Assembly: GCA_023382265.1 (NCBI GenBank)
Contig: JAMCPX010000058.1
Location: 1 to 45,697 of the forward strand
Origin: Deltaproteobacteria bacterium
GTDB taxonomy: Bacteria > JAMCPX01
Direction: 5' to 3'
Length of the DNA stretch: 45,697 bases
Shown here piece by piece: positions 9,345 to 45,680 of the stretch; position 1 is the stretch's first letter, and every line of letters starts with the position of its first letter. Under the pieces are notes generated by a model. It worked only from the letters and a program-made list of their open reading frames with translations. It was not told the origin of the DNA and made no database searches. The position numbers and the translations under genes were made by a program.

Positions 9345-9374
9345 TGTATACAAATTTGATTTTTACATTGTCAA
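9345..9374 (-). promoter_or_regulatory. Promoter of the TCA operon
   Basis: Reading the minus strand, TTGACA (9374-9369) and TATACA (9350-9345) are separated by 18 bp and lie about 40 bp before the aconitase GTG, in an AT-rich gap. It is a good sigma70-type match. No operator palindrome is obvious beside it. Confidence 0.7.
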
Positions 9375-9567: not shown

Positions 9568-9600
9568 AAAAAAAGAAAAGGCGTGCATAAAGCACGCCTT
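9568..9600 (-). terminator. Rho-independent terminator of the outer-membrane barrel gene
   Basis: Minus-strand AAGGCGTGC, loop TTTAT, GCACGCCTT, then a T-rich tail (TTTTCTTTTTTT). The 9-bp perfect stem lies 31 bp after the stop of the gene ending at 9632. It isolates that gene from the TCA operon promoter downstream. Confidence 0.9.
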
Positions 9601-9631
9601 GTAACAACGGATAAGAGACTAAGAGGTAATG

Positions 9632-10593: not shown

Positions 10594-10668
10594 CGTCCCC
10601 AACGGGATTTGAACCCGTGTTACCACCTTGAAAGGGTGATGTCCTTGGCCGGGCTAGACGATGGGGAC
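10594..10668 (-). tRNA. tRNA-Glu (anticodon UUC)
   Basis: A 75-nt cloverleaf on the minus strand. The acceptor GTCCCC pairs with GGGGAC, the discriminator is G, and the anticodon loop CTTTCAA gives UUC. The T-arm ACGGGTTCAAATCCCGT is intact. The sequence closely resembles other bacterial tRNA-Glu. CCA is not encoded. A T-run follows on the minus strand and may end transcription. Confidence 0.96.
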
Positions 10669-10715
10669 ACAACAATCATACCCTACTGAGGGTATAATTC
10701 TCTAAAACTCTATAG

Positions 10716-10777
10716 AGATTCTTCACTTCGTTCAGAATGACACCGGTCATTCATGGTGGTGCAGCCACGAAGAATCT
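10716..10777. repeat. 62-bp palindromic element between two tRNA genes
   Basis: The outer arms AGATTCTTC (10716-10724) and GAAGAATCT (10769-10777) are exact inverted repeats. An inner perfect hairpin GAATGAC-accg-GTCATTC sits at 10735-10752. The sequence AGATTCTTCACTTCGTTCAG belongs to a style of short repeat scattered in many bacterial genomes. It could be a MITE-like insertion or a processing hairpin in the tRNA transcript. Confidence 0.7.
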
Positions 10778-10787
10778 ATTCTAAAAA

Positions 10788-10860
10788 TGAGCCACGCGGG
10801 GCTCGGACCCGCGACCCCCTGCTTAAAAGGCAGATGCTCTACCACCTGAGCTAGTGGCTC
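10788..10860 (-). tRNA. tRNA-Lys (anticodon UUU)
   Basis: A 73-nt minus-strand cloverleaf. The acceptor GAGCCAC pairs with GTGGCTC, the discriminator is A, and the anticodon loop CTTTTAA gives UUU. The D-arm is TAGCTCAGGTGGTAGAGC and the T-arm CGCGGGTCCGAGCCCCGCG. CCA is not encoded. It lies 119 bp before tRNA-Glu in transcription order, probably on the same transcript. Confidence 0.97.
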
Positions 10861-11014
10861 TTAATCGATCTTTTCTATAAAATACCTTGCTGCTTTCAGA
10901 TAATCTTTAACAGCATTCGTATCATAAATAAGTCCTCTAATACGTATCATCCTCTACAGGGACTTTTTTTAATATCTCTTTTGCATTATTTAGATATCTA
11001 ATAGCATCTTTCAT
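10861..11014 (-). pseudogene. Decayed small gene, two frames (DUF5618-like remnant)
   Basis: Minus strand from the ATG at 11014: 25 codons read MKDAIRYLNNAKEILKKV then PVEDDTY and a stop (10937). In another frame the sequence continues as IRGLIYDTNAVKDYLKAARY, then FIEKID and a stop at 10861, abutting tRNA-Lys. Both halves look like helical protein. From memory the first resembles the start of small DUF5618-like proteins (EAIRYLNNAKEIL). The simplest reading is one short helical gene broken by deletion and frameshift. Two very short peptides would be the alternative. Confidence 0.4.
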
Positions 11015-11031
11015 GTTAACACCGATTTTAA

Positions 11032-11059
11032 ATATTATATACTGTAGAGATTATGTCAA
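11032..11059 (-). promoter_or_regulatory. Possible promoter for the decayed gene and tRNAs
   Basis: Minus-strand TTGACA at 11059-11054 with TAATAT at 11037-11032 (16-bp spacer). An overlapping TATAAT lies two bases closer. It sits upstream of the remnant gene and the tRNA pair, so it could drive all of them. Confidence 0.5.
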
Positions 11060-11100
11060 GACAAAATACAAGCAATTAAACCCCTTGCTTTCACTTAACA

Positions 11101-11275
11101 GGAAGGGATGTCTACTGAAGTCCCCATAATATGAGTGCATATGGGGTCTAAATTCGTCCTTCCCGGTCCAGGCACCGCTGAAGCATCCCGCCTCCTCCGT
11201 AAACGGGGAGGGAATTTAAAAATAAAAAAATCCCCTCCCCTTTCAACTCTCTCCTGAGAGGAAGGGCGAGGGGGC
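11101..11275. repeat. Composite palindromic repeats in lipoprotein-tRNA gap
   Basis: Three nested or adjacent palindromes are seen. GGAAGG (11101) pairs with CCTTCC near 11158-11163, enclosing CCCCATA/TATGGGG. Next come GGGGAGGG (11205-11212) and CCCTCCCC (11233-11240) around an A/T-rich loop. Then CTCTCCTGAGAG with GC-rich flanks ends near 11275. No gene is present. These look like degenerate repeat units stacked after the lipoprotein gene, and may also stop transcription. Confidence 0.5.
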
Positions 11276-11294
11276 TGTAAGAAAAATTATCTTT

Positions 11295-13001
11295 TTACCA
11301 GATCGGGTTCTCTGTTGTGAATGGTTTACCCGCGTTTGTCGTATCCGTAAACAACCCGTAGATGCCGCCTGCGATGAGCTTATCTAATGAATATACTGAT
11401 GCTGACTGGAATCCTGCTGGTGTTGCTGCCGGACATGGAGATGATCCACAGAACTCAAGCATCTGACTTAAGTCGATTGAAAGTATGCCGCCAAATGTTG
11501 GATCAGCAAACGAGATATACGGGATCATTGCCGGTAATGATCCAAGTAAAGAAATACTCAAAGGACCTGCTGTTACAGGCACTGAAATGCCGTCTGGCGA
11601 TATATTTGTGTTTGTACCATCTGTAAAGTGGCTTGCATCACCTGCTTCATAATACCACGGCATGCCGCCTGTTGTAGCTGTAATCTCTGCCTCTATCTGG
11701 AATTGATTCTGATCACCAGCATTACTTGCAAGCGTTGGTAAAAATGAGTTGATGGGCTTTGGAGTCTTAAAGTAGTAGTATGGATCCAGCGCTACCACGT
11801 TTGATGTAAAATCATCGCCTGTGAAGCCTAATGACTCAAGCAGGGGGTTTACATCCGTCGGTACTATCTGTGCAGGGCTGTTAGTTTTAAGGTTGCCAGC
11901 CATATTACTGAGTAGTGCAGATATTGCCGGCATAAACTTCTTTGATACGTTTGCCGGGATTGTAATTGTTCCATCCGAAGCTATACCGCTACCATTCATT
12001 GTAACCCCCAATCCACCGACCATACCTACTACATCTGTCACACAATTTGTCGTTGTGGTCGGATCGGTACAGCCAAGCTTTATAGTATCACCACCGTCAA
12101 CCACACCATCTCCGTTTACATCCGTATACTGGATTATCTTTGCAGGATTGCCCGCATCTTTTGCAAGGGCCGCCGGCAGGTTTTGTATCTCCTGCATTGC
12201 ATCAGCCATATCAGCACCTGCCTGAGTCATTAAAGTAGCTCCATTGGATGTGAAACCAAGGAATGAAGGACATTGATAATAAGCCGCACCTATTCCTCTT
12301 AATCCACCTATCTTGTCTGAACTGAATGTTGTCAAAGCAGCTTTTAACGGTGTCAGCTGTCCTATTAAGCATTGCACACCGAGTGTTTGTGCAGAAAGTG
12401 AAGCAATAGCGGCATTAAGCATATTTGCTGTTGAGCCGAGCACACTTGCCTCTGCAGGACCCCACTGAGTTCCAAAAGTCATCTGTATGTCAATATAAGG
12501 CAGAGATAATGAAGAAGACCCCCCGCCGACAGTGCCAAGGAGCGAAGATACCGTTGAAAGATCCGGCTTAATCTCAATTGGAAGCGCCGGCAAAGTAAAC
12601 TCGCACCCCTGACTCTCTATGACAGCGGTTCTGGTTGGTATATCCTGCAAATCAATATTAACTGCCGTAAATGTATTCCCGATTGTATCTGTAAGCAGGT
12701 TGGTTATAAGATTTGCCACAAGCTCTGTTAACTGAACGTTTGCTGCGTCCTGGAAATCGGCAAGTGTCATTCCCCAGTTTGCGCTGCAATTATTTGGATC
12801 AGATTTAAGTACCTGAAGGAATGCAGATTTTGCTCCGGCCGGATTTTTCGCTGCAAGTGCGTCACTGCCCTGCTGTATAAGTTGTGCAACAGTTGGTCCG
12901 GTATTACCTTTACCTCCGCTGCCTGATGAACCGCAGCTTGATACCATCGCACCTGCTGTTATTAAACCAATTGCCAATAAACTAAACTTTGTTAATTTCA
13001 T
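11295..13001 (-). CDS. Large lipoprotein with N-terminal TPR-like segment, unknown role
   Basis: The family is not recognised. The 568 residues begin with a lipoprotein signal (lipobox VSSC, Cys23) and a Gly/Ser linker. A TPR-like helix pair follows (SDALAAKNPAGAKSAFLQVL, residues about 47-66), then a long domain with several Cys. DVNGDGVVDGGDTIKLG, an EF-hand/dockerin-type calcium loop, lies near residue 295. The protein is expected to be exported and lipid-anchored. The ATG follows a GGAGAGGG ribosome site. It lies 89 bp after another large lipoprotein gene, with a palindrome between them, so the pair is probably co-expressed. Confidence 0.8.
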   Translation of the reverse strand: MKLTKFSLLAIGLITAGAMVSSCGSSGSGGKGNTGPTVAQLIQQGSDALAAKNPAGAKSAFLQVLKSDPNNCSANWGMTLADFQDAANVQLTELVANLITNLLTDTIGNTFTAVNIDLQDIPTRTAVIESQGCEFTLPALPIEIKPDLSTVSSLLGTVGGGSSSLSLPYIDIQMTFGTQWGPAEASVLGSTANMLNAAIASLSAQTLGVQCLIGQLTPLKAALTTFSSDKIGGLRGIGAAYYQCPSFLGFTSNGATLMTQAGADMADAMQEIQNLPAALAKDAGNPAKIIQYTDVNGDGVVDGGDTIKLGCTDPTTTTNCVTDVVGMVGGLGVTMNGSGIASDGTITIPANVSKKFMPAISALLSNMAGNLKTNSPAQIVPTDVNPLLESLGFTGDDFTSNVVALDPYYYFKTPKPINSFLPTLASNAGDQNQFQIEAEITATTGGMPWYYEAGDASHFTDGTNTNISPDGISVPVTAGPLSISLLGSLPAMIPYISFADPTFGGILSIDLSQMLEFCGSSPCPAATPAGFQSASVYSLDKLIAGGIYGLFTDTTNAGKPFTTENPIW

Positions 13002-31693: not shown

Positions 31694-34216
31694 CTACGAT
31701 GATTTTATCATCATATCATCGGTAAGTACTATGATTTTTTTTATCGGCTTATTTGCCAATTCCTTATAACTAGTTTGCCATTCTAAGATTTCTTTCTCTA
31801 CAAACCTTGTTTGTCTAGTGTAATTTTTTCGTGATAAATTTAGTATGGTGGCAACATCTACCGTATCTTTTACTTTTAACATCGGGGTTGTTTTGAACAC
31901 AAACGGATGGCTTGGAGCATTCTTTATTAATAACCTTCCGGCCGCATGAAAATCCGGCAACTCCTGCAAATCATTGGCTTGCAACACTGGTTTTGTATAT
32001 ACCTCCATTTTATCTGCATCCGTTGAGCCGAGCCGCAGCATTAGAATCGTTCCAACATTACCAAGAACAGAATCAAGAATATTCTGCATACCTTGGTTTT
32101 TAGTTAGCTGGGCAAGATTTTGATTTGCAATAGTCATATGTATACCGAATTTTCTTGCTTCCGAGATCAAATATGCAATCGTATCGGTGGTAAAATTCTG
32201 AAACTCATCCACATAGAGGAACATTGGCCTTCTTTGCTCAAGGGGAATTGAGACACGTCCCATTGCGGAACTAAATATCTTCCCAATAATTAACATGCCG
32301 AGCAATTGGCTATCTAACTCACCAAGGAGACCTTTAGAAAGATTAACGAGCAAGATTTTACCTTTGTCCATAATTTCACGGAAATTGATAGTGCTTTTTG
32401 ACTGACCTATAATAGGTCGTAATAGTGCATTTGTGGTAAACTGATTAAGCTTACAGGTAACATATGGCGCCATATTATTTAATGATGCCTCGCCATCAGC
32501 TTTTTCTGCCTGCCTCTCCCAAAATCCACTAACAATAGGGTTATTGCAGCCTTCTATCAGGAATTCACGATATTCTTTATCCTCAAAGATCAAGGGTATA
32601 TCCATAAGCGTACGTCCCGGGTATTTGTTATCCATTGCAAGAAATAATGCATTTCTCATATACTGCTCAAATATCGGCCCGCCTGTTCTTGAAAGATCAT
32701 ACAGTCGATCAAAGATCTTGATCATCTCATTCGTTATATAATTTATCTGTACCTGTTTATATTGCTCATCAAATTCGAGGAAGTTAATCCCGACCGAATG
32801 ATTGAAATCACAGGGGTCCACCAGTACTACATCATCCATTCTCCAACTTGGTATTGATGCCAATATCTGGTGGTAGAGGTCACCGTGCGGATCTACAACA
32901 GCCACACCCTCTCCGTTTTCAATATCCTGTACTATCATGTTATAAAAGAGTGTAGATTTCCCAGTTCCTGTAGCACCGACTACATAACAGTGCCTGCTTC
33001 TATCCGATCGTGAAAAACGGACGTTCATCTGTTTCAGATCATCTTTTATCTGTCCGAGAATAATACCGTCTTGGGGCAAGTTCATGATACGGTTTTTGTA
33101 AATACGGTTAACTCCATAATCTATCAGAGTAGATACATCAGGAAACAGGGGAGGCAATGCAGCACCCATGTTGAGGCAATCCCTGAGATCAAGAGCTTTA
33201 TCATCTAAAACAGATTGGGGTTCTTCGCTCAATATGATCTCTTTTGCCTGCTTTACTACCTTTACCGAAACCGGACAGTCATGGAAGATTTCATTGCCGA
33301 CCATCTTTAAGAATGCAACTGATATAGGCTCTTCCGACATAACTTTGCAGTTTATCCTAAAACCGGAAGGATTTTTAAGCCATGATATGAGATTGCGTCT
33401 AATGCCATTAATTATTTTGGGGTCGTCAACTCCGGCTTCTGCATCAGGAAGATAATTGATCCTTTTTATTCCACCGTTCTGCAACCATTCGAGAGTAGTT
33501 CCTATGTCTTGCAGATCATTGGCGGTAAGAGTAAACGGGTTAATTGAGAATACCAGTCTTATGGGTGCCACATGCCTTAATGCTTCTATAAGCACTGAAT
33601 TGAAGCTATCGACATATTTGTTTCCTACTGTTGGGACAATGAGAAGATTTGACTTATTTAATCGCTCTTCAGGGGATACAAAACCTGCATGTCTTTGTCT
33701 CCGTTTATCTATCGCAACTCCTGACAATGTTATTATACCTTCCCAGTATTTATTGTTCTCTACTTTAGTCAGCTTTTCCGTAGTTTTCACCGGGAGGAAG
33801 CTGTATTTCTTTTCTGTACTTTGTAAAAGGAGTTGTGTAGCCTTCCATAACTTCAATGTATCCAGGGCTGCTATCTCAGGGACACTGCAGGTAGAACTCC
33901 CTATAATCTTCCATGTGAAGCATTTACCTTTTGTGGTTACATTTTCTGTGCTATATACAAACTCCAATTTATCATTTATCGAAAGGCATGATATTAAGGA
34001 ATTCTTAAAACGATCATGAGAGAATGCATGTTCCGTATCTTCTACACTATTGTTTTTAACTATCCCCTCCAACTCAAGCTCAAAAAAGGCTTCAAAAGAT
34101 TTATGTTCCATGTTCTCTATAACATGGATTAAAGGTTGTTCATGGCTTAATGGTTCAATAAATTCTTGCCAGCTTTTTCTGTTTTTATTTTGGTGTTCCT
34201 TTTCAGTTGGTATCAT
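31694..34216 (-). CDS. VirD4/TraD/HerA-like DNA-pumping ATPase, orphan
   Basis: An 840-residue P-loop ATPase of the FtsK/HerA superfamily. Walker A GATGTGKST lies near residues 413-421, followed by VVDPHGDLYHQIL, a hallmark of conjugative coupling-protein and HerA-like enzymes. Walker B FLYVDEFQNF lies near 670, then EARKFGIHMTIANQNLAQL. The C-terminal half matches the TraD/TraG-type motor. The N-terminal about 400 residues are not recognised. No transmembrane anchor is evident, so it may be cytoplasmic. No relaxase, T4SS or nuclease gene is nearby. AAAGGAGGTC precedes the ATG. It probably moves DNA or protein, but the partner is unknown. Confidence 0.8.
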   Translation of the reverse strand: MIPTEKEHQNKNRKSWQEFIEPLSHEQPLIHVIENMEHKSFEAFFELELEGIVKNNSVEDTEHAFSHDRFKNSLISCLSINDKLEFVYSTENVTTKGKCFTWKIIGSSTCSVPEIAALDTLKLWKATQLLLQSTEKKYSFLPVKTTEKLTKVENNKYWEGIITLSGVAIDKRRQRHAGFVSPEERLNKSNLLIVPTVGNKYVDSFNSVLIEALRHVAPIRLVFSINPFTLTANDLQDIGTTLEWLQNGGIKRINYLPDAEAGVDDPKIINGIRRNLISWLKNPSGFRINCKVMSEEPISVAFLKMVGNEIFHDCPVSVKVVKQAKEIILSEEPQSVLDDKALDLRDCLNMGAALPPLFPDVSTLIDYGVNRIYKNRIMNLPQDGIILGQIKDDLKQMNVRFSRSDRSRHCYVVGATGTGKSTLFYNMIVQDIENGEGVAVVDPHGDLYHQILASIPSWRMDDVVLVDPCDFNHSVGINFLEFDEQYKQVQINYITNEMIKIFDRLYDLSRTGGPIFEQYMRNALFLAMDNKYPGRTLMDIPLIFEDKEYREFLIEGCNNPIVSGFWERQAEKADGEASLNNMAPYVTCKLNQFTTNALLRPIIGQSKSTINFREIMDKGKILLVNLSKGLLGELDSQLLGMLIIGKIFSSAMGRVSIPLEQRRPMFLYVDEFQNFTTDTIAYLISEARKFGIHMTIANQNLAQLTKNQGMQNILDSVLGNVGTILMLRLGSTDADKMEVYTKPVLQANDLQELPDFHAAGRLLIKNAPSHPFVFKTTPMLKVKDTVDVATILNLSRKNYTRQTRFVEKEILEWQTSYKELANKPIKKIIVLTDDMMIKSS

Positions 34217-34267
34217 TTGACCTCCTTTCTTTTAAAGTAAAATTACGTTCCTTCCTTCTTTCGAAAT

Positions 34268-34293
34268 AGAAAAACCAGATTTTTAATCTGGCC
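34268..34293 (-). terminator. Rho-independent terminator of the 113-residue gene
   Basis: Minus-strand CCAGATT-AAA-AATCTGG followed by TTTTTC, about 35 bp after the stop at 34326. It separates that gene from the ATPase gene, which must be transcribed by read-through or its own promoter. Confidence 0.75.
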
Positions 34294-34325
34294 TTCAAGG
34301 CTTTTGTATAAATAATTATGAATTG

Positions 34326-34667
34326 CTACTTATCTGGTTTCCACCTTTGATTCATCCTGTACATTTCATAGCCTATATGTGGAGCCAATGCCCTGCAGCA
34401 TGCATTTTCTAATACAGCTTGCGTTTCTTTATACTGTGATTCAACCGCTTTTTTCCCACACCCTAAAAGTATATCCTTCGCCCTGTCTACAATACTAAAC
34501 ACCGATTGGCCGTTTAACTTTCCATCCTTTGCCAAGAAACTGATTTCGACAGTCCAGCTCTTTAATCTTTTTCCCCATTCACGCTTGAACTTTTCTGGAT
34601 TTTCTTGTGCCAGCATCGATAGAAATAATTGTTGCTTGCTTTTTCTCCTTTCCGAAGCTTTACCCAT
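34326..34667 (-). CDS. Small hypothetical protein upstream of the ATPase
   Basis: Not recognised. A 113-residue, basic, mainly helical soluble protein starting MGKASERRKSKQQLFLSML, with no signal or membrane segment. A very strong ribosome site (AAAGGAGGAG) precedes the ATG, so it is probably abundant. A terminator follows. Its position directly before the ATPase gene suggests a partner, possibly DNA-binding, but no motif proves it. Confidence 0.65.
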   Translation of the reverse strand: MGKASERRKSKQQLFLSMLAQENPEKFKREWGKRLKSWTVEISFLAKDGKLNGQSVFSIVDRAKDILLGCGKKAVESQYKETQAVLENACCRALAPHIGYEMYRMNQRWKPDK

Positions 34668-34850: not shown

Positions 34851-35213
34851 TTATTTTCGCTGCACTATTTTTATCAAAGACACGATTCCAACTGTAGTTA
34901 CCTCATACCATTTGACAAATATCTTACCGATGAATTGTATAAATGACCACAAGATATTTGTAATGAGTCCAGCTACTACCTTTTCAGTAATCTTTGTAGA
35001 AAAGACAATATCAATACAGATCAAAAGAGCAATAATACTACCAATAAGCAATAAACCTAATTCAAGTATTACTGTTAATACACTCCATACCAATAATTTA
35101 TTATTTCCAGAATTATGAATTGAGTGAAGAAGAATACTACCATGCTGGATAATTAGAGGAACAACAATAACTCCCACTACTATCACTCCCATTAATTTCA
35201 ATAGCTTGTTCAT
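34851..35213 (-). CDS. Small membrane protein, last gene of the kinase-AAA cluster
   Basis: Unknown family. The 120 residues contain an N-terminal hydrophobic segment (about 8-22), a strong central span (about 42-72), and a weaker amphipathic C-terminal segment. It has few charged residues until the end. The ribosome site is weak (AGAAATT). It lies 147 bp after the lipoprotein gene and is AT-rich like the rest of the cluster. It could be a membrane partner of the kinase or PEGA protein. Confidence 0.55.
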   Translation of the reverse strand: MNKLLKLMGVIVVGVIVVPLIIQHGSILLHSIHNSGNNKLLVWSVLTVILELGLLLIGSIIALLICIDIVFSTKITEKVVAGLITNILWSFIQFIGKIFVKWYEVTTVGIVSLIKIVQRK

Positions 35214-35218
35214 AATTT

Positions 35219-35320
35219 CTAATTTATTGTGAGATTCGCTTGAAAAATATTATCATTGTTTAATAATTGCCCATTTGCCTGATGAATTGTTATTCCGCCA
35301 TGTCCTACTGATATATCCAC
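35219..35320 (-). CDS. Possible 33-residue peptide
   Basis: An open frame with a GTG start reading MDISVGHGGITIHQANGQLL then NNDNIFQANLTIN, stopping six bases before the small membrane protein's ATG. The frame stays open upstream to about 35350. The sequence has protein-like strand character, but the Shine-Dalgarno-like GGGGAAG touches the GTG, so initiation is doubtful. It may be a remnant of a longer gene. Confidence 0.25.
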   Translation of the reverse strand: MDISVGHGGITIHQANGQLLNNDNIFQANLTIN

Positions 35321-35360
35321 CTTCCCCAATCGATTTGCTAATAGATATCTACAAACATCT

Positions 35361-36440
35361 TTAATATTTCACCCCATTTGTTTTAATTTTATTAGTTATT
35401 GAATATTCTCTGCCGGATTTTGTATCTACCAGTATAAGAGAATCTCTATCACCAATGAGTATTACATCAGCTCCAGTTAAATTACCTATAATCTTTGCAA
35501 ATTGTATTCTATCATTCTGTATTTTACTTTTATCCAAGTCAGAAAGTGAACTCTTTATTAAATTATCATTAACCACACTTATTCTTATCTTTGCTAATTT
35601 AGCTTTTAATTTCGCTATCAGCGCAGTCACATCAGATGTTGTTGAAACTGGCGGTAATATAGCAATTCTTTCATAATGTTTTGTAGCAATGATGTTTAAT
35701 AATCTTTTTGTAATGATATTAATATTCTCATTCATACCTGATACTTGTTTCAGTAATTTTTCGAAAGCTTTACTCATTGCCTCACCAATAACTTTTGAAT
35801 AACCGTTATTAATGGTATTAATATAGTCTAATAATCCGATACAGTATGCTGGTACACTGCTTGGCTCTGAGGAATCTTGCGAAGTAAAGTCTTCTATAAC
35901 TTCAGAATTTTCTGGATCTATCACCTGTAATTCATATTCAACTGATGCATCAATAGTAATAGATCCTGTAAGATTTTCATCTTGACTATAATGTGCTGTA
36001 ACGCTGGAATAAGGAATCAAAATATAATCATAATCGTTTTTGTTTTTAATCTGTGCGATATCTCCGTACATATCAACACTATCAAATAGATTGGACAAAT
36101 CTTGGGCAAATAGCTCCGCATTGGCAGTACCTACTTTACTGCCAAATGGTATATTCCATTTAATATTACCACCTACTTCATTTGTATTGCAAACAGACTC
36201 TGTAACTAATGTATCATTGTAAACAGCATCTTTAAACTTGTTTGTAATAATAAGAGCAATCCTATAAGGAAGCCTTTCATCTAAAGGTATATTCTCTGAA
36301 AAAGTAATCTGTGGTATAATTGGTGTAACAGTACATGAAATAGATAAAATATTTAGGAATAATAGTAACAATAAAACTCTTTTTTTAAAAAACAACCTAT
36401 TAAAACTGTTATGCATAATATTTACAACACTAATCGACAC
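35361..36440 (-). CDS. Probable lipoprotein with CsgG/TolB-N-like C-terminal domain
   Basis: A 359-residue exported protein. Start GTG at 36440, with AAGGAG at good spacing; an ATG eight codons on is the alternative. The basic-hydrophobic signal ends ILSISC (Cys36), an imperfect lipobox. The N-terminal domain (about 55-200) resembles lipoproteins that report on envelope assembly (DYDYILIPYSSVTAHY). The C-terminal part (ERIAILPPVS, GADVILIGDRDSLILVD) has the strand pattern of CsgG/FlgO-type domains, which is a tentative match. It starts three bases after the PEGA gene stop, inside the kinase-AAA operon. Confidence 0.6.
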   Translation of the reverse strand: MSISVVNIMHNSFNRLFFKKRVLLLLLFLNILSISCTVTPIIPQITFSENIPLDERLPYRIALIITNKFKDAVYNDTLVTESVCNTNEVGGNIKWNIPFGSKVGTANAELFAQDLSNLFDSVDMYGDIAQIKNKNDYDYILIPYSSVTAHYSQDENLTGSITIDASVEYELQVIDPENSEVIEDFTSQDSSEPSSVPAYCIGLLDYINTINNGYSKVIGEAMSKAFEKLLKQVSGMNENINIITKRLLNIIATKHYERIAILPPVSTTSDVTALIAKLKAKLAKIRISVVNDNLIKSSLSDLDKSKIQNDRIQFAKIIGNLTGADVILIGDRDSLILVDTKSGREYSITNKIKTNGVKY

Positions 36441-36442
36441 TT

Positions 36443-37204
36443 TTACTCCTTTTTGCTGAGCATATAATCAAATGTTCTTTTTTCTCCTTTTTTAACATTT
36501 AGTATGTCCCATATAGTTTTATATCCTTGCTTCTCGATAATGATACCATGTGATCCATTCTCTAAAGCTACAGTAAGAGGGGTTGTCCCTTTGGCTTTTC
36601 GGTCTATCTTGACCAATGCACCTGAGGGTGAGGATTTTATCGTGAAAGAGAGCAATTTTAATTGATTATTTGGCTTTTCTACCAATGAAGTTGACACCTT
36701 TGCAGCAAACCAATAACCACTATGACCAGCGGTATCTGTGTAATTCCCCCGTATAGATTTGAAATCTGATGTAATATTTCCATTAAACGTATCTAAATTA
36801 AACCAACCTCGGCCTTTTAAACGTTTATAACTTGTACCCCTTAAAATAATCCGACTATTACCCTGTATTTGCCCCTGTAAATTTTCTTTTACACCTTGGT
36901 AATATATATCTCCATAAATGTTGTTCTCCTTTCGATTAAGATAAATAACTCCAGGAATATTCCCAACCCTTGTATTCCATTTTCCGGTGAGATCGCTTGC
37001 AGTAGCTGGCTGAACATAAGACTGCGTCGTTGTTCCACTTCGGACGGCTGGTTGAACTGTAGAAAATAAGTTTGTTAGATTAGCATCGCTATATGCGGGG
37101 AAATACTTGTTTATAATCAAATAATTTAATGATAGATATAAAATAGCGGGAATCGCTATCAACATTGCTATAGTTGGTACGTGATCAAAAGTATCTTGCC
37201 TCAT
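36443..37204 (-). CDS. Membrane-anchored PEGA-domain protein
   Basis: A 253-residue protein with one N-terminal transmembrane helix (about 11-30) and a Ser/Thr/Gln-rich linker. A beta-rich middle domain follows (LTGKWNTRVGNIPGVIYL to GYWFAA), then a C-terminal PEGA domain (about 187-250; SPSGALVKIDRKAKGTTPL, GYKTIWDILNVKKGEKR). PEGA domains are found in surface and S-layer-linked proteins and in kinase-linked envelope proteins. The topology puts both domains outside the cytoplasm. AAGGAGGG precedes the ATG. It lies between the PP2C and lipoprotein genes. Confidence 0.75.
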   Translation of the reverse strand: MRQDTFDHVPTIAMLIAIPAILYLSLNYLIINKYFPAYSDANLTNLFSTVQPAVRSGTTTQSYVQPATASDLTGKWNTRVGNIPGVIYLNRKENNIYGDIYYQGVKENLQGQIQGNSRIILRGTSYKRLKGRGWFNLDTFNGNITSDFKSIRGNYTDTAGHSGYWFAAKVSTSLVEKPNNQLKLLSFTIKSSPSGALVKIDRKAKGTTPLTVALENGSHGIIIEKQGYKTIWDILNVKKGEKRTFDYMLSKKE

Positions 37205-37269
37205 TTACCCTCCTTCTGAAAGGTTTCTATTTAAATCCTATCCATTGAATGAATGTTCTACAAACAACA

Positions 37270-38022
37270 TTATTCCTCTCTGTAAATTGTCGCTATTATT
37301 ATGGAAATATTATCCTCACCGCCATTATCCTTTGCTTTTAACAAAAGCTTATCTATCGGAGTCTCTCCAGTTAAAATCTGTTCTATTTCATCATCCGGTA
37401 CCATTTTTGTTAAACCATCACTACACACAATTAAAATATCTTCGTTTAATACTTTACCACCAATGGGTGCGAAATCAATAAAGAATTTCTCCCCTCCTCC
37501 AAAAGAATTAATAAGAAGACTTGAATCTATAACTTTATTGCCTATGACCTCAGATAATGAGTGATCCTTTGATATTTGCATGAGATTTCCTCTGCGAAAT
37601 CTATAAAGTCGACTATCGCCCACATTCATATAAAAAGCCTTATCTTCATAGAACAATACACCAATAAAGGTTGACCCCATACCTTTTTTTGTTAAATCAT
37701 TATTCCCTTCATTTAACATAAAGTTGTGTATCTCTTTTGCCCAGCCAGTAATTACTTGTTTTATCTCCAGCTCGCTTAATTTCATGTCCAGCGTATTAAA
37801 CTTCTCCGCCATCTTCTTCAAAACAATATCACTTGCAATCTCGCCAGCATTATGTCCACCCATGCCATCTGCAATTGCTATAATGTATTTTTTAACATTA
37901 CCTATATCAATTTCGATTTGCTCGCTGTTATCTCTGAAAATATGATCTCCTATTAATATCATATCTTCATTATGGTCTCTTACACAGCCTTTATCACTCA
38001 CAGCGGAAATCTTTAATTGCAT
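37270..38022 (-). CDS. PP2C-family Ser/Thr protein phosphatase
   Basis: A 250-residue cytoplasmic phosphatase, single PPM/PP2C domain. It has RDHNED (15-20) and ADGMGGHNAGEIAS (51-64) for the metal-binding Asp residues, then MNVGDSRLYRFR, VCSDGL and a final GGEDNIS with the last metal Asp. All catalytic residues are present, so it should be active. It is three bases after the FHA gene and in the same operon as the Ser/Thr kinase; it is presumably the antagonist of that kinase, as in PppA/PpkA or PstP/PknB pairs. Confidence 0.92.
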   Translation of the reverse strand: MQLKISAVSDKGCVRDHNEDMILIGDHIFRDNSEQIEIDIGNVKKYIIAIADGMGGHNAGEIASDIVLKKMAEKFNTLDMKLSELEIKQVITGWAKEIHNFMLNEGNNDLTKKGMGSTFIGVLFYEDKAFYMNVGDSRLYRFRRGNLMQISKDHSLSEVIGNKVIDSSLLINSFGGGEKFFIDFAPIGGKVLNEDILIVCSDGLTKMVPDDEIEQILTGETPIDKLLLKAKDNGGEDNISIIIATIYREE

Positions 38023-38025
38023 TAA

Positions 38026-38646
38026 TTATATCCTTCTTGTGCCAGTTTTTCCTATCATAAATATCTGTACATAAAACTCTATTTTATCCGCAATCAATAA
38101 AAGTGATTTATCTTTCAATATTTGCGGTTGATTGGGTGTTAATAAAACATTATTGTATTTGGTTCCGAATGTTGAGTCCATGTCAATACATATCCAACCA
38201 TTTTTAGGATCATAGTTGATTTGCAAATGTTTTCCTGAGACGTATTGATATTGGCCAAATACGTCAACAAACCGCCCAGTTGTCCGGCCAATTATATCTC
38301 CATTCTCTACCCTCAAATCCAACCCAAGATTATTATTTATTAAATGTAATTCATTTGTCTTTAAATTCACCGGTGAAGCTGCTGGATTGTTTAAGGGAGG
38401 GGATACCGGATTAATTGGAGTTGGATTAATTGCAGACACATTGTTATTTACCCATAGAGGAGATTGAACATTACCCCCTTTATCTTTCTTAGAGACCAAA
38501 GCTGTTCCATCAGATGTACAAACTTTCCCCTTCCCGGGTTTACCACATTTGGGACATATAAATATCTCCCTACCACATTGATCGCAGTATATTGAATTAT
38601 CTTCTATATCACTTTTACAAAATGGACAAATCATAATATTTACCAT
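38026..38646 (-). CDS. Zinc-ribbon and FHA-domain protein
   Basis: A phosphothreonine reader. Two short zinc-binding blocks are at the N-terminus (CPFCKSDIEDNSIYCDQCG and CPKCGKPGKGKVC), then a Pro/Asn-rich linker, then an FHA domain at about 105-200 (IIGRTTGRFVDVF, YVSGKHLQI, DMDSTFGTKYNNVLL) with the conserved Gly-Arg, Ser-x-x-His and Asn positions. I use the ATG at 38646 rather than the TTG at 38655; the ribosome site is weak in either case. It probably binds a phosphorylated product of the operon's kinase. The AAA+ protein also begins with a zinc ribbon, hinting at a shared partner. Confidence 0.85.
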   Translation of the reverse strand: MVNIMICPFCKSDIEDNSIYCDQCGREIFICPKCGKPGKGKVCTSDGTALVSKKDKGGNVQSPLWVNNNVSAINPTPINPVSPPLNNPAASPVNLKTNELHLINNNLGLDLRVENGDIIGRTTGRFVDVFGQYQYVSGKHLQINYDPKNGWICIDMDSTFGTKYNNVLLTPNQPQILKDKSLLLIADKIEFYVQIFMIGKTGTRRI

Positions 38647-38662
38647 AAAAATCAATTACATA

Positions 38663-38848
38663 CTAAATTGCTCCATGAGCTTTTAATAAATTTATCATAT
38701 CGATATGCTTATTCTCTGTAGCAAACATTAAAGCTGTAAAGCCATCGTTGCTCTTTACATTTATATCTGCACCTTTCTCTAAAGCAGTTTGTAATACAGG
38801 TAAATTCCCTTCTTTTGCAGCTCCCAACAAAACATCATCTAAATCCAT
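38663..38848 (-). CDS. Small ankyrin-repeat protein (truncated paralogue)
   Basis: The 61 residues form about two ankyrin units: EGNLPVLQTALEKGADINVK and DGFTALMFATENKHIDMINL. The first about 33 residues closely copy the start of the large ankyrin protein encoded just upstream (shared AAKEGNLP and LQTAL), so it arose by duplication with loss of the repeat array. AAAAGGAGAT precedes the ATG, so it is probably translated. It could compete with or cap the larger ankyrin protein. Confidence 0.75.
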   Translation of the reverse strand: MDLDDVLLGAAKEGNLPVLQTALEKGADINVKSNDGFTALMFATENKHIDMINLLKAHGAI

Positions 38849-38895
38849 TTTTTATCTCCTTTTATTTCATATTATCTTATGATTGCGAGAATTTT

Positions 38896-40440
38896 TTAGT
38901 CACTCTCATCGTTATCTTCATCATTGTCATTTTCATATTCCTCTTCATTGTTATTTCCTACCAATACTTTTATTGCTCCTGAATCTTTTAATAACTTTAC
39001 AACTAATGTATGACCTTTATCAGAAGCAAACTCTAAAGCACTTGAACCACCATTACTTTTTTCATTCACGACTGCACCCTTTTCTATTAGTAGTTTCACT
39101 ACATCGGCATAACCACTGTCAGAAGCAATCATTAAAGCTGTAGAACCAATGTTGTTCTTTGCATTTACATCTACTCCTTTTGCTATCAAAAGATTGGCTA
39201 ACTCTGCATTCCCACCCACTGCAGCATGCATCAAAACTGTATCACCACCGTTGCTCTTTACATTTACATCTGCTCCTTTTGCTATCAAAAGATTGGCTAA
39301 CTCTGCATTCCCTTTCGCTGCAGCATAAAATAAAGCTGTAAAGCCATCGTTCGTTCTCGCATTTACATCTATTCCCTTTTCTATCAATAAATTGGATATC
39401 TCTGCATACCCTTCCTGTGCAGCATCAAATAAAGCTGTAGAAGCATTATTTGCTCTTGCATTTACATCTGCTCCTTTTGCTATCAAAAGATTGGCTACCT
39501 CTGCATTCCCATTTACTGCAGCAGCCATTAAAGCTGTAGAACCATTGTTGTTCTTTGCATTTACATCTGCTCCTTTTGCTATCAAAAGATTGACTAACTC
39601 TGCATTCCCACCCACAGCGGCACCCATTAAAACTGTAATACCAGTGTTGTTCTTTGCATTTACATCTGCTCCTTTTGCTATCAAAAGATTGGCTAACTCT
39701 ACATGCCCATTTACTGCAGCAGCCATTAAAGCTGTAGAACCATCATTTGCTCTTGCATTTACATCTGCTCCTTTTGATATCATAAAGTTAGCTACTTCTG
39801 CATGTGCATATCCTGCAGCAAACGTTAAAGCTGTAGAACCGTCATTTGTCCTTGCATTTACATCTGCTCCTTTTGATATCATAAGATTGGCTACCTGTGT
39901 AAGTCCACCCTGAGCTGCAGCCATTAAAACTGTAAAATCATCGTTCTGCATTATATTTACATCTGCACCTTTCTCTATTAAAAGATTGGCTATCTCTGCA
40001 TGCCCATTCGCTGCAGCAACCATTAAAGCTGTAGAACCATTATTTGCTCTTGCATTTATATCTGCTCCTTTGTCTATTAAAAGATTGGCTACCTCTGCAT
40101 CCCCGTCCTGCACAGCATACATTAAAACTGTCTCACCATTGTTGTTTTTTGCATTTACATCTGCACCTTTTGCTATCAAAAGATTGACTAACTCTGTAAG
40201 TCCGCCCTGTGCAGCACCCATTAAAACTGTAATACCAATATTGTTCTTTGCATATACATCTGCTCCTTTCTCTATTAAAAGATCGGCTATCTCTGCATGC
40301 CCATTCGCTGCAGCAATCATTAAAGCTGTAGAACCATTGTTGTTCTTTGCATTTACTTCTACACCTTTATTTAAAGCAGTTTGTAGTATAGGTAAATTCC
40401 CTTCTTTTGCTGCTTCTAATAAAATCTCATTTAAATCCAT
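38896..40440 (-). CDS. Ankyrin-repeat protein, 15 units
   Basis: A 514-residue cytoplasmic solenoid. It has fourteen exact 33-residue units and a last unit with an acidic tail (EEEYENDNDEDNDESD), with no indel between units. The consensus is NNGSTALMAAAxNGxAELANLLIAKGADVNAK. There is no signal peptide. The matching 99-bp DNA repeats are partly near-identical, so copy number may change by slippage and assemblies may collapse it. TAGGAGG precedes the ATG. Placed between the AAA+ gene and the FHA gene, it is a likely scaffold or substrate-recognition part. Long antisense open frames here are by-products of the repeat. Confidence 0.92.
   Translation of the reverse strand: MDLNEILLEAAKEGNLPILQTALNKGVEVNAKNNNGSTALMIAAANGHAEIADLLIEKGADVYAKNNIGITVLMGAAQGGLTELVNLLIAKGADVNAKNNNGETVLMYAVQDGDAEVANLLIDKGADINARANNGSTALMVAAANGHAEIANLLIEKGADVNIMQNDDFTVLMAAAQGGLTQVANLMISKGADVNARTNDGSTALTFAAGYAHAEVANFMISKGADVNARANDGSTALMAAAVNGHVELANLLIAKGADVNAKNNTGITVLMGAAVGGNAELVNLLIAKGADVNAKNNNGSTALMAAAVNGNAEVANLLIAKGADVNARANNASTALFDAAQEGYAEISNLLIEKGIDVNARTNDGFTALFYAAAKGNAELANLLIAKGADVNVKSNGGDTVLMHAAVGGNAELANLLIAKGVDVNAKNNIGSTALMIASDSGYADVVKLLIEKGAVVNEKSNGGSSALEFASDKGHTLVVKLLKDSGAIKVLVGNNNEEEYENDNDEDNDESD
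38985..40431. repeat. 99-bp tandem repeat array encoding the ankyrin units
   Basis: About fourteen units in register. Short cores such as GCTCCTTTTGCTATCAAAAG and CATTTACATCTGCTCC recur almost unchanged. This is a site for unequal recombination and for short-read assembly error. Confidence 0.85.
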
Positions 40441-40452
40441 ACCTTTTACCTC

Positions 40453-42966
40453 CTAAGTATTTATCGACTTGAAATCATCCCGTTGAATTGTGTCGCGTAT
40501 CTCAGAGCTTATTTTCTCTTTTTGCATTAGTTCTGCAATTCTTGCCGCTTGATTCTGAATTACAGTTTCAAATAAATTTCTCACAGTCCTGCCATTGGCA
40601 AATTTCTTATCCCTATTTTCATGCATCTTCAGAAATACAGAATCTAAAAAGGTGTCTGTATCAGGAGTAAGTCCCATCCCCTTCGATCTAGCCATCGATA
40701 TGAATATAGCCTTCAATTCTTGAGGGGTATAATCTTCAAAGTTAATATATTTTGTAAATCTTGAAGGAAGTCCTGGATTAGCACTAATAAAATCATCCAT
40801 CTCCTCGCTATATCCCGCGGCAATTACAATAAACTTGCCTCTATCATCCTCCATCCTCTTCAGAAGGATATCTATAGCTTCCTCCCCAAAATCTGTTCCA
40901 TCACTTTTAGGAGTAAGGGTGTAAGCCTCATCAATAAATAGTACACCACCTATGGCGTTATCTATTACCCTGTTAGTTTTAGGCGCTGTTTGACCTACAT
41001 ATTCAGCTACAAGTCCTGATCTATCCACCTCAATAAGTTGCCCTCTTGATAAAAGCCCCATTGCTTTAAAAATATCAGCTAAAATCCTTGCTACAGTCGT
41101 TTTGCCTGTTCCAGGATTACCCTTAAAAACAAAGTGCAGGTTCAAAACGGTCCCTTTCCCACCATCAGCTACTCTTTCTTTTTCAACAGTGATATAGTTT
41201 ATAAGGTTCTTCACTTCTTGTTTAACAGTATTAAGCCCTATAAGATTGTCTAACGTCTTTAATGCTTCTTCAACTGTTACCTTCTTATCTTTTTCATAAG
41301 TTTTTGGAATGTCTTCAGCCTTGATTAACAATAATTCTTCTTTTTCATAATTAACCTTTTCCACTAATCGTTTCGACAGTAATTTTTTACATTCATCAAA
41401 AATATTCCTGACTTCTCTCCCATTTGCAAAGTTTTTATCTCTTCGCAAATACATAGCACTAAAAATATCTTTAAGTTTATCCTCTGCCTTATCTTCAACC
41501 TTATATTTATCACTTTCAGCCATTTTTTTAAATATAGCCAGCATCTCATCCGCATTGTAATCATTCAAATGGAACTGCCTATTAAATCGCGATTTCAGCC
41601 CGGGATTGGCGTTTATAAAATTATCCATTTCTTTTGGATATCCGGCAGCAACTACAATAAATTTTCCTCGGTCATTCTCCATTCTTGTTAAAAGCGTGTC
41701 GATTGCCTCTTTGCCGAAAGAATCATTAACCCCTTCAGGGGCCAATGTATATGCTTCATCGATAAATAAAATACCACCCATTGCTTCATTTATTTTATCA
41801 TTAGTTTTTCCCGCTGTCTGACCAACATACCCGGCAACAAGGTCCTTTCTTTCTGCACCAATCACCTGGCCCCTATCTAATAAACCGATTGCCTGAAATA
41901 ATTCCCCAAGCTTACTAACAATAGTAGTCTTTCCTGTCCCTGGATTGCCGGTTATTACAATATGTATTGCAGGCTTTGATGTAGAACCGATAATCTTGGA
42001 CCTATCTTCTTCAATTCTAATACTTGAAAATAAATCCCTTATATCTCTTTTGATATCTTCCATCCCAATCAAGGAATCGACTTCCTTTATAATATCTTCA
42101 ATACTTTTCTCTTCCGGTATTTTACCCTTAATGTCTGCGGGAATTATAATATTATCATCGTTGGCGCCTTCAGATATTCTTTGATAGTAATTACTTATTA
42201 TATCATCAACGATTTTAAGTACAAGCCGTGCATTACTAAAGGATGTATCCTTTGTTTTTACTAAATATTTAAACAATCTTTTTAATTGTTTCTCAGCATC
42301 AGGATTTAAATTGAATTTTTGTTTCATTAATTCTTTTTCTGCAATCTGAAACATTTCATCAGGATTGAAATCCGGAATCTGGAATATGTACTTAAACTTA
42401 CTTTTTGCGCTTGGGTTCTCATTGAGATATTCATTTAATCCCTTTGGCAAACCAGCAAGCATAACAATGGGATCGTATCCTGATTTGTCCATTTCCGTGA
42501 AGAGTTTATCCAACGGATTTATCTCACTTGAATAGCCAGCGGGTAGTAATTTTTGCACGTTGTCAATAAAGAGAATCCCACCTTTTGCCTTGCCATAATT
42601 GGTTTCAAAATCTTTGGCAAATTTCGAGTAATCTACCGCGTCCACCATTACTGCATCTTCCTTTGCAGTAATCCCATATTTATAAAAAACTCGGCATAAT
42701 ATCTCACCGATTTTACTCTTACTTGTTCCAGTGTTACCTATAATGATCGTATGAAGATTTACTTTCGGAACACTTTGACCATCCTTTTTCTTTTTCGTCA
42801 TTGATTGGGCAATATTAATAATTTTTTGAATCTGTTGTTTTATATCATCTAATCCAACAAGATCTTCCAAGTTGAAAGAAGATTTAGCTATTTTAGCACC
42901 GCAATACTTACAGTATTGCGCATTATCTCTGTTGTCCGCGTTACATTTTTCACATTTGATAGACAT
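40453..42966 (-). CDS. Zinc-ribbon protein with three CbbX/SpoVK-type AAA+ modules
   Basis: An 837-residue cytoplasmic protein. A zinc ribbon (CEKCNADNRDNAQYCKYCG, residues 4-22) is followed by three AAA+ domains of the CbxX/CfqX class. Module 1 has a degenerate Walker A (GNTGTSKS, near 77) and Walker B (LFIDNVQ, near 134, with Asn for Glu), so it probably cannot hydrolyse ATP. Modules 2 (GNPGTGKTT near 339; LFIDEAY near 402) and 3 (near 616 and 678) are intact, with the VGQTA pore-loop motif and GVNDSFG- or GTDFG-type loops. Relatives remodel Rubisco or act in EccA-type secretion. The target is unknown here. It is 15 bp after the kinase gene. Confidence 0.9.
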   Translation of the reverse strand: MSIKCEKCNADNRDNAQYCKYCGAKIAKSSFNLEDLVGLDDIKQQIQKIINIAQSMTKKKKDGQSVPKVNLHTIIIGNTGTSKSKIGEILCRVFYKYGITAKEDAVMVDAVDYSKFAKDFETNYGKAKGGILFIDNVQKLLPAGYSSEINPLDKLFTEMDKSGYDPIVMLAGLPKGLNEYLNENPSAKSKFKYIFQIPDFNPDEMFQIAEKELMKQKFNLNPDAEKQLKRLFKYLVKTKDTSFSNARLVLKIVDDIISNYYQRISEGANDDNIIIPADIKGKIPEEKSIEDIIKEVDSLIGMEDIKRDIRDLFSSIRIEEDRSKIIGSTSKPAIHIVITGNPGTGKTTIVSKLGELFQAIGLLDRGQVIGAERKDLVAGYVGQTAGKTNDKINEAMGGILFIDEAYTLAPEGVNDSFGKEAIDTLLTRMENDRGKFIVVAAGYPKEMDNFINANPGLKSRFNRQFHLNDYNADEMLAIFKKMAESDKYKVEDKAEDKLKDIFSAMYLRRDKNFANGREVRNIFDECKKLLSKRLVEKVNYEKEELLLIKAEDIPKTYEKDKKVTVEEALKTLDNLIGLNTVKQEVKNLINYITVEKERVADGGKGTVLNLHFVFKGNPGTGKTTVARILADIFKAMGLLSRGQLIEVDRSGLVAEYVGQTAPKTNRVIDNAIGGVLFIDEAYTLTPKSDGTDFGEEAIDILLKRMEDDRGKFIVIAAGYSEEMDDFISANPGLPSRFTKYINFEDYTPQELKAIFISMARSKGMGLTPDTDTFLDSVFLKMHENRDKKFANGRTVRNLFETVIQNQAARIAELMQKEKISSEIRDTIQRDDFKSINT

Positions 42967-42980
42967 TGTTTTATTGCCTT

Positions 42981-45680
42981 TTACATCTTCTTTAAGTCCA
43001 AAGTTATAGGAGTATTTGTTATCACAGATTTCAAAGCTTCTTGATCAAAAGTACCATTATATTCGAGTAAAGAAGCTGGGAAATAGCCTAATGCATTAAT
43101 TTCATTATGTTTATATTTCATTAAGAAGAAACTACCTGCAACAGCGCTTGATGCCAGTAAAATATTTCCTACAAACAAAGGTAATAAAAATGCTATTACC
43201 ATATATATCAAGAGTATAGGCAGAAAAAACCCCAATGCTGCTCCCGCCTTAGGATGTCCTTTACGATCTCCTAAATATCCACCGAGAATTGTTCCAACAA
43301 GCGATGTAATAAGGATTATGGCGGAAATACTGTTTGAATGAACATTCTGCCATTGGTCATTATTTAAGAAAAACAGGAATTGATGAATAAATAATATAGA
43401 TGTTATACCTACTATACATAGAGCTAAGATTGTATAATAAGTAGTAGTGTACCATGTATTTATACTTTTTCTTCTGTTGTTTTCTTTTTCTATATCCTTT
43501 TTAAGTTCTTGTACTGCATTGTCATATTTTACTACTAACTCATCCGATGAATAAAGAGCTCTGATTTTATTCAGTATATCTTTTTGTTTACCGAAATCAC
43601 CCGTATTAATAATACCCTTATATCCCTTAATCAGATAATTTTTATACGTTTCATATAGATCTTTGGATAAAAGTCCCTCGTTGAATCCGGTATTTACCAA
43701 CGACTTAAAATTGTCCCAGTGATAATCCGGAGTTGCGTTAGCTTGCATGGTATATCCTATAAGTGATGCAAAAACTTCCTTGTTTATGTTATGTAAATTC
43801 TTCTGTACATATTCCTTTAGGATATTCAGATAATCTGTGTTTTGATAATTTGTTAACCAAAAGTTAGCCTCTTCAACGAAAATAGAATTGGTGGATGCTT
43901 CTTGCAGAAAATCTTTATCTGAAAGTTTTGCTTCAAACCGGGTCTTAAACTGATCTAAGTTCGCTGCTTCTATTATAAGATGGAATGGGCTTATTTCTTC
44001 CAGCGCATAAGATAGCGTTACGTTATTATGTCTTCCGAGCTTTCTCCACTTGTCAATATTCCCTCTTATATTAGTAAATTGCTCTAACCAAAGAGATAAT
44101 TTTGAATCCAGGTTTTCAAGTTGATTGGCAAATTTTGTCTTTATTGCATCTTCTGATAAAATTATGTCTTCCGGCTTAAAAAATACAAAATTATCGATTT
44201 TAAACTTCTCTTTGCCCTGTAGTTCCAACACTATTGTATTAAATGCTTTATCTGGATTAAAAGCTTTTATATACTTTCTGAAAGTATCGGCTAGATCTTT
44301 GTGCCCTCTTGCTTCTAAATAAATATATAAATCGGTATTTTGATTTTTTGTTAGTGCCGATTTATAATATGATGATTCCTTTTCTATATTATCTCCTATT
44401 TCTTCACCATTCTTACATTCAACACCAGTAAATGTAGTGAAATTCTTATACGGGTCTAATGTAAAAATAGCTTTGATCAATCCAGCAGTTTCATCCTTTG
44501 GATATTCATCTTCAACAATACTTCTGATTGCTACATGGAGTGATTGTACAGTCTCCGCCCATTTCTGTATGGTACCTTTATAAAGATGTTTCTTACCTTG
44601 TTCGGGATATTCCTCTAATAATTTTGCTAAATCGGCTGGATCATTTACGACGACTTCTTCTCCATTTATAACTCCAAAATGGAAATCTCCGTATTTAACT
44701 TCGACGATTTTATAATATACGGGGACATACTCTCCGTTTAGCCACTTCTCTACTTCTGTATAAGACCATCTCTTTGTAGGTTCCACCGTTATTAATCCCT
44801 TAATTAGATTCTTTAAATCTTCCGGCATATCATCAGGTATATCTACTTTACCTTCTGACTTAGCTCTCATTATTGAAAGCTCATTCAATTCTTGGAATGG
44901 TTCTTCTCCGGACCATATATGTATCAACGTCATTCCTAATGCATAATAATCTAATTCTTTACTAATAATGGTTTTGCCGTCTACCGCCTGATAAAGTTCC
45001 GGAGCAGCATAAATTGCGGTCCTCGCTTGACCGGTCATATGTTTCGACATCCCGTCTTCAAGCATTGAAGAAATGCCGAAATCGCCAATCAACACATCTG
45101 TACCATCTGCATTCTTGAAAAAGATGTTCTCAGGCTTTATATCTCTGTGGACTATCCCTTTTGAATGACAATATTTTAATGCATTAACGATTTCTTTTAC
45201 TATTTGTTTTATTCCATTAATGTCCGTGATGGGCAAGTATTTATATTTTTCATTGTCTGTTTTATCCATGAGATTGCCGCCTGCAGCATACTCCATGACT
45301 TCGTAAAACCTATCTCCGTACCAACCATAATCTTCAAGATCTACAATATCCTCATGATGTAATCCTTTCAGTTGAGATAAAATAGTTTCCTTGGGCCTGA
45401 AATTGGGATAATAGTATTTAAAGACAAAGTTTTGATTATTTTTCTCTAACAAATATATTTCGGCTTCACCCGTGGATTTAGCGATAACTTTTACTATATT
45501 ATAGTTTTGATTATTAAGGGTTATCCCCTCACCTGGCTTGCTATCCATACCCGCAGAAATAATCTGGGACTGAGAACTAGCAGGTATTACTCCCGACGAT
45601 ATTTTTCCATCCGAAGATGTGACCCCGGACGAGATTACCGAGCCATCTGCACGAGTAGTTTTGTTAGGTTTATCTACCAT
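42981..45680 (-). CDS. Membrane-anchored eukaryotic-type Ser/Thr protein kinase
   Basis: An 899-residue protein, first visible gene of the cluster. A Ser/Gly-rich N-terminus (SSGVTSSDGKISSGV) leads to a kinase domain (about 55-320). It has the catalytic loop HRDIKPEN (His178, Asp180), DFG at 200-202 and YAAPELY. The Gly loop is poor (AKSTGEAEI), but Lys in FVFKYY and the other catalytic residues are present. Residues about 330-735 are a helical region with KKHLYKGTIQKWAE that I cannot assign. Several transmembrane helices lie at about 743-850, and a short cytosolic or periplasmic end follows. The ATG follows AGAGGG. Expected to phosphorylate partners read by the FHA protein. Confidence 0.88.
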   Translation of the reverse strand: MVDKPNKTTRADGSVISSGVTSSDGKISSGVIPASSQSQIISAGMDSKPGEGITLNNQNYNIVKVIAKSTGEAEIYLLEKNNQNFVFKYYYPNFRPKETILSQLKGLHHEDIVDLEDYGWYGDRFYEVMEYAAGGNLMDKTDNEKYKYLPITDINGIKQIVKEIVNALKYCHSKGIVHRDIKPENIFFKNADGTDVLIGDFGISSMLEDGMSKHMTGQARTAIYAAPELYQAVDGKTIISKELDYYALGMTLIHIWSGEEPFQELNELSIMRAKSEGKVDIPDDMPEDLKNLIKGLITVEPTKRWSYTEVEKWLNGEYVPVYYKIVEVKYGDFHFGVINGEEVVVNDPADLAKLLEEYPEQGKKHLYKGTIQKWAETVQSLHVAIRSIVEDEYPKDETAGLIKAIFTLDPYKNFTTFTGVECKNGEEIGDNIEKESSYYKSALTKNQNTDLYIYLEARGHKDLADTFRKYIKAFNPDKAFNTIVLELQGKEKFKIDNFVFFKPEDIILSEDAIKTKFANQLENLDSKLSLWLEQFTNIRGNIDKWRKLGRHNNVTLSYALEEISPFHLIIEAANLDQFKTRFEAKLSDKDFLQEASTNSIFVEEANFWLTNYQNTDYLNILKEYVQKNLHNINKEVFASLIGYTMQANATPDYHWDNFKSLVNTGFNEGLLSKDLYETYKNYLIKGYKGIINTGDFGKQKDILNKIRALYSSDELVVKYDNAVQELKKDIEKENNRRKSINTWYTTTYYTILALCIVGITSILFIHQFLFFLNNDQWQNVHSNSISAIILITSLVGTILGGYLGDRKGHPKAGAALGFFLPILLIYMVIAFLLPLFVGNILLASSAVAGSFFLMKYKHNEINALGYFPASLLEYNGTFDQEALKSVITNTPITLDLKKM

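Follow-up and report, generated by a model that had tools for sequence, protein, structure and literature searches.

A proposed phospho-gated AAA+ module, probably stress- or conflict-related, whose candidate core recurs in a second bacterial phylum

The window, an entire contig (C58) of 45,697 bases, ends in nine minus-strand open reading frames between positions 34851 and 45680 (Table 1). All nine were verified in position, as were the gaps separating them: from the kinase to the small membrane protein these measure 14, 12, 47, 7, 3, 65, 2 and 147 bases. The initial annotation had described nine same-strand genes with mostly short gaps, which is borne out; operon membership of the small membrane protein, beyond the 147-base gap, is uncertain. 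Its domain assignments (kinase, triple CbbX-type AAA+, ankyrin, FHA, PP2C and PEGA) agree with Pfam and NCBIfam. The first codon of the kinase lies at the edge of the sequence: the contig terminates 17 bases further on.

Table 1. Genes of the cluster, listed from the kinase onwards (window coordinates).
Feature	Length (aa)	Position	Strand	Basis
Ser/Thr kinase	899	42981..45680	-	Pfam Pkinase 8e-40; G085 orthologue; post-kinase profile; hydropathy
Zinc-ribbon and triple CbbX/SpoVK/EccA-type AAA+ protein	837	40453..42966	-	Pfam/NCBIfam; alignment; G085 orthologue
Ankyrin-repeat protein	514	38896..40440	-	Pfam; sits between AAA+ and FHA
Short ankyrin paralogue	61	38663..38848	-	Translation; N-terminus resembles that of the large ankyrin protein
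Zinc-ribbon and FHA-domain protein	about 202	38026..38634	-	Pfam FHA 1e-9; 47% identity to G085
PP2C-type protein phosphatase	250	37270..38022	-	Pfam/NCBIfam; catalytic motifs intact
Membrane-anchored protein with C-terminal PEGA domain	253	36443..37204	-	PEGA 2e-14
Lipoprotein, lipobox LSISC	359	35361..36440	-	No family match
Small membrane protein	120	34851..35213	-	Hydropathy

The kinase domain has intact catalytic motifs (Lys, HRD and DFG). It is preceded by an N-terminal tail in which ISSGV is repeated and followed by a post-kinase domain (about residues 311-495), a variable region and, at the C-terminus, three hydrophobic segments (residues 745-851, from hydropathy). The post-kinase domain is common, by profile, to the kinases of the window, of genomes G085 and G273, and of Aristaeella; it has no Pfam match and no sequence match in the PDB, and a single-sequence AlphaFold2 model was unusable (pLDDT 39). 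The ISSGV motif is also repeated in the tail of the G085 kinase; a docking function for this tail is speculation. The C-termini differ: that of G085 consists of TPR-like repeats, those of G273 and G097 carry hydrophobic segments, and hydropathy places no membrane segments in the G085 and Aristaeella kinases. A tree that took in six of the seven other kinases of the host genome (the seventh, on contig C31, was left out) places the window kinase with those of G085, G273, G097, Aristaeella and Rhizobium, apart from these six (support 100/99). A PP2C-kinase pair on contig C56 of the host genome proved to be unrelated to the cluster. The kinase had no match among phage proteins at 1e-12, and a scan of viral contigs with the AAA+ and kinase alignments returned none.

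The second gene encodes an N-terminal zinc ribbon followed by three AAA+ modules, each with an AAA_lid_6 domain (Pfam). The spore_V_K, CbbX and EccA models all score above cut-off, with scores summed over the repeats, and the best PDB match is CbbX. Alignment shows that the modules are not equivalent: the first is degenerate, with the Walker B glutamate missing from both known orthologues and no YVGQTA pore loop, whereas in modules 2 and 3 the Walker A and Walker B motifs, the pore loop and the arginine finger are all retained. Those members of the SpoVK/CbbX/EccA clade that have been characterised act as dedicated chaperones, each with a narrow range of targets: SpoVK is an activator of MurG, and EccA1 has an effect on mycolic acids (PMC10659427). 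The window protein shares the modules, lid domain and YVGQTA pore loop of this clade and differs from it in its three tandem modules, its N-terminal zinc ribbon, its degenerate first module and its coupling to a phospho-switch.

Within the cluster, zinc ribbons are found at the N-termini of the FHA and AAA+ proteins and not on the kinase. For the FHA gene, 38634 is the probable start, since a relative begins at the corresponding MICP; a TTG at 38655 is the less likely start. The PP2C shares 46% identity with that of G085, as against 27-33% with the other PP2Cs of its own genome. Among the envelope genes, the PEGA protein has a single hydrophobic segment (residues 6-24). No Pfam family matches the lipoprotein, whose single-sequence AlphaFold2 model had a pLDDT of 36, so that the CsgG-like domain suggested for it initially was not confirmed; relatives of it were absent from the eight family genomes and from three other carriers (12 genomes checked, including the host).

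The GC content of the cluster is 34.6%, compared with 41.6% in bases 1-31000, a stretch of housekeeping genes that includes TCA-cycle, leucine-synthesis, lepA and lipid genes. Close relatives of the host (a 2.63 Mb genome, 95.8% complete) numbered eight in the searched set, all from the same family, the remaining genomes returned being of the same domain only; none of the eight has the AAA+ gene. The low GC content, together with the absence of both the AAA+ and the lipoprotein genes from these eight relatives, suggests that the cluster was acquired as a unit. Beyond it on the same strand follow a gene for a 113-aa protein and one for an 840-aa TraG/HerA-like ATPase (gaps of 183 and 109 bases), which we do not count in the unit. 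These two genes (31694-34667) are possibly remnants of a mobile element: the ATPase matches PHROGs family 5156 (E 6e-55).

Of 386 genomes surveyed, one besides the host has a full-length orthologue of the triple AAA+ protein: G085, which belongs to a different phylum. The match covers the full length at 52% identity. On contig C27 of G085 the AAA+, FHA and PP2C genes lie in the same order and orientation as in the window (52, 47 and 46% identity, respectively), and the contig terminates 15 bases past the AAA+ start. Because this order recurs in another phylum, the arrangement goes beyond chance. A kinase orthologue (51% identity over residues 9-496, E 1.5e-155) is also present in G085, but in the interior of another contig (C8), unlinked in the assembly from the other three genes. 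The expectation that the genes would be co-located across lineages therefore holds in G085 for AAA+, FHA and PP2C and, in this assembly, not for the kinase, nor for the ankyrin and PEGA genes. No ankyrin, PEGA, lipoprotein or small membrane gene lies beside the G085 trio, which is instead adjoined by a glycosyltransferase gene and, past PP2C on the opposite strand, by groEL- and groES-like genes. Reading all nine genes as a single fixed system is thus not upheld. On these comparisons the conserved core is kinase, AAA+, FHA and PP2C, with the ankyrin and envelope genes as lineage-specific additions outside it.

The scope of this recurrence is narrow: the triple-AAA+ form is known from two genomes, in both of which contig breaks conceal neighbours. 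The phylum of G085 is represented by seven genomes, of which only G085 has the AAA+ gene, and a search among its relatives returned the same background genomes again. The greater similarity of the window PP2C to that of G085 than to the others of its own genome, taken with the split in the kinase tree, indicates that the core genes were probably inherited, or travelled, together. At its own locus the G085 kinase is preceded by a multi-zinc-ribbon protein (the pair at 9356-12357 and 13981-15429 of L066), with a BrxL gene a few kb off and SNF2 helicase/NOV_C on the other side; the locus possibly lies inside a BREX-like island.

A contig scan with the AAA+ alignment, using zinc-ribbon peptides as patterns, gave a single match of 26 residues. 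Matches to CbbX-type AAA+ proteins are numerous in plasmids, and the kinase/FHA/PP2C context is missing from those inspected; the FHA and PEGA proteins had no plasmid match. The Calothrix plasmid NC_019728 encodes an 848-aa multi-module CbbX-type AAA+ protein in one run with Hsp70, TPR and 4Fe-4S single-cluster proteins, with no annotated kinase or PP2C. A search among the relatives of genome G252 drew mainly on one large genus, which has many long open frames (about 1,100-1,460 aa) with tandem CbbX-type AAA+ modules; these were rejected as full-length orthologues.

The kinase leads to operons with a different AAA+ protein. A kinase search of the background genomes found G273 (E 7e-49; two genomes of its phylum are in the set), where a single run encodes a ClpB-like AAA+ protein, a 4Fe-4S protein, a zinc-ribbon FHA protein, PP2C, a kinase with C-terminal hydrophobic segments and a membrane protein. 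A plasmid of Aristaeella lactis carries a kinase, a hypothetical protein, FHA, 4Fe-4S, a ClpB-like AAA+ protein as in G273, PP2C, DUF6273 and a second kinase; this operon (L068) adjoins a gene for a DUF4011 protein, and the 44-kb element that bears them also has an integrase-like gene. Rhizobium and Caballeronia plasmids (L107, L113 and L114) combine a ClpB-like AAA+ protein and a 4Fe-4S single-cluster protein with a protein of about 2,090 aa that has a related kinase domain (annotated as AAA domain-containing in L107), followed by a protein whose first residues are MSGPK, an operon that looks like an extended Mokosh-type system. Plasmids of Acinetobacter, Moellerella, Polaromonas and Photobacterium (L109-L112) carry a five-gene operon for a large AAA-domain (helicase) protein, PIN, a hypothetical protein and this pair of ClpB-like AAA+ and 4Fe-4S proteins; the Polaromonas helicase, the first gene, matches the PADLOC Mokosh MkoA model (7.6e-102), and the Moellerella operon is near resistance genes. 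The ClpB-like and CbbX-type AAA+ proteins are not close relatives, and the link between these operons and the window is through the kinase and the shared gene types. With that proviso, the kinase/PP2C/FHA switch is found with various AAA+ machines and is often plasmid-borne.

How does the cluster compare with systems already described? With the threonine phosphorylation pathway of type VI secretion (PpkA, PppA and Fha) it has in common a membrane kinase, PP2C and an FHA protein; it differs in that its AAA+ protein is of the CbbX type, not ClpV, and in that its host genome has no sheath gene. TerY-P triads, and the SpoVK-extended Type III-A CoCoNuT operons, likewise include a Ser/Thr kinase, PP2C, zinc ribbons and, in some operons, a SpoVK-type AAA+ protein. 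Up to the contig end, however, the cluster has no vWA domain of the TerY kind (Pfam) and does have an FHA domain; it also has no CoCoNuT genes, and its kinase ends in hydrophobic segments, whereas the TerY-P kinase is fused to a C-terminal zinc ribbon or OB fold. The KKP system (PfkA/PfkB/PfpC) resembles it in placing kinase, PP2C and FHA domain in one operon, but has two adjacent kinases where the cluster, up to the contig end, has one, which is much larger; the cluster also has its FHA domain on a separate zinc-ribbon protein and adds the triple AAA+ protein. As for Mokosh type I and Mokosh-like systems, the window kinase domain groups distantly with that of the Rhizobium plasmid protein, and no SF1 helicase is fused to it or near it (Pfam). 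A literature search found no description of the gene set, operon drawings in figures and subscription papers lying outside a text search. The cluster is thus akin to the switches of TerY-P, KKP and the T6SS threonine pathway and a member of none; like the initial annotation, we know of no named system that combines these genes.

We propose that the core works as an AAA+ chaperone module gated by phosphorylation, a reading to which we give an even chance. The kinase, membrane-tethered in the window genome, would sense a signal and phosphorylate its partners as well as itself; the sites so marked would be read by the zinc-ribbon FHA protein, which would recruit the triple AAA+ protein by docking; the latter would remodel one dedicated client, with module 1 structural and modules 2 and 3 hydrolysing; and PP2C would reset the switch. 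The genes for the ankyrin proteins, PEGA protein and lipoprotein may encode sensors or client adaptors that act at the envelope and are specific to the lineage. In favour of this proposal, AAA+, FHA and PP2C have diverged to a like extent (46-52%) between the window and G085, which also has the kinase orthologue, and the same functional set occurs with a different AAA+ protein in G273 and Aristaeella. The phospho-switch with a CbbX-type remodeller, already singled out in the initial annotation, is a unit conserved in at least one unrelated lineage (G085). Against it, the triple-AAA+ form occurs in only one further genome, with its kinase on another contig. Moreover, FHA domains prefer phosphothreonine, whereas the repeat in the kinase tail offers serine, and the window FHA copy lacks the usual asparagine (TFGT instead of TNGT).

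The main rival is an anti-phage or inter-element conflict system, in which the kinase would be a toxic or alarm effector restrained by PP2C, FHA and AAA+ would sense or assemble the response, and missing effectors may lie past the contig end. It owes this place to the kinase relatives in plasmid and defence-like operons (the Aristaeella plasmid by DUF4011, the Rhizobium/Caballeronia plasmids, G085 near BrxL) and to comparable modules of defence: KKP is an experimentally shown defence system (PMC11341870), and TerY-P triads accompany defence operons, in some cases with a SpoVK AAA+ protein (PMC11090510). The phage-family match of the neighbouring ATPase points the same way. We nevertheless rate it unlikely, for the nine genes include no nuclease, helicase or other effector; PADLOC gives single-domain matches only, with no system-level match for any cluster protein; the MADS kinase model (MAD6) reaches 99 bits, far below its cut-off of 460; and the G085 trio sits beside glycosyltransferase and groESL-like genes with no visible defence island.

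More doubtful still, and in our estimate improbable, is an envelope-homeostasis regulator akin to PASTA kinase/PP2C/FHA modules, its AAA+ protein chaperoning a cell-wall or lipid enzyme while the PEGA protein and lipoprotein report envelope state. The kinase membrane segments, PEGA protein, lipoprotein and small membrane protein do fall in one run, and the activation of MurG by SpoVK and the effect of EccA1 on mycolic acids fit this view (PMC10659427). The envelope genes, however, are not conserved together with the core, membrane segments are missing from the kinases of G085 and Aristaeella, and the family relatives live without the AAA+ protein. The original suggestion of a machine at the envelope is weakened accordingly, as it relies on lineage-specific genes and on kinase segments for which those two kinases have no counterpart.

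That the cluster belongs, as its regulatory part, to a T6SS or ESX locus past the contig end is scarcely credible, despite its PpkA/PppA/Fha-like set and EccA-type AAA+ protein: VipB/TssC (PF05943) is absent from the host genome and from G085, G273 and G097, with E. coli as positive control, so the cluster is not a T6SS regulator, in keeping with the initial observation that no tss gene is visible, and the T6SS reading is largely refuted; EccA, a TPR plus one module, is unlike a zinc ribbon with three modules, and the window has no EccC or WXG100 match (Pfam; window only).

Returning to the chaperone module, we see it as mobile and probably stress- or conflict-related. A bolder version, possible though on the doubtful side, is that a stand-alone kinase/PP2C/FHA switch, diversified on plasmids and in little-known phyla, drives interchangeable AAA+ proteins that remodel a target when the cell is infected or stressed; this would be a new kind of phospho-controlled conflict machine. 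The known targets of bacterial kinase/PP2C/FHA switches are secretion, cell-wall growth and phage defence, and we found no earlier case of a CbbX/SpoVK-type chaperone under such a switch. If the coupling is real, the core would allow the gating of a dedicated AAA+ remodeller by phosphorylation to be put to the test, and the occurrence of ClpB-like AAA+ proteins in parallel operons suggests a switch that can be reused to control different machines.
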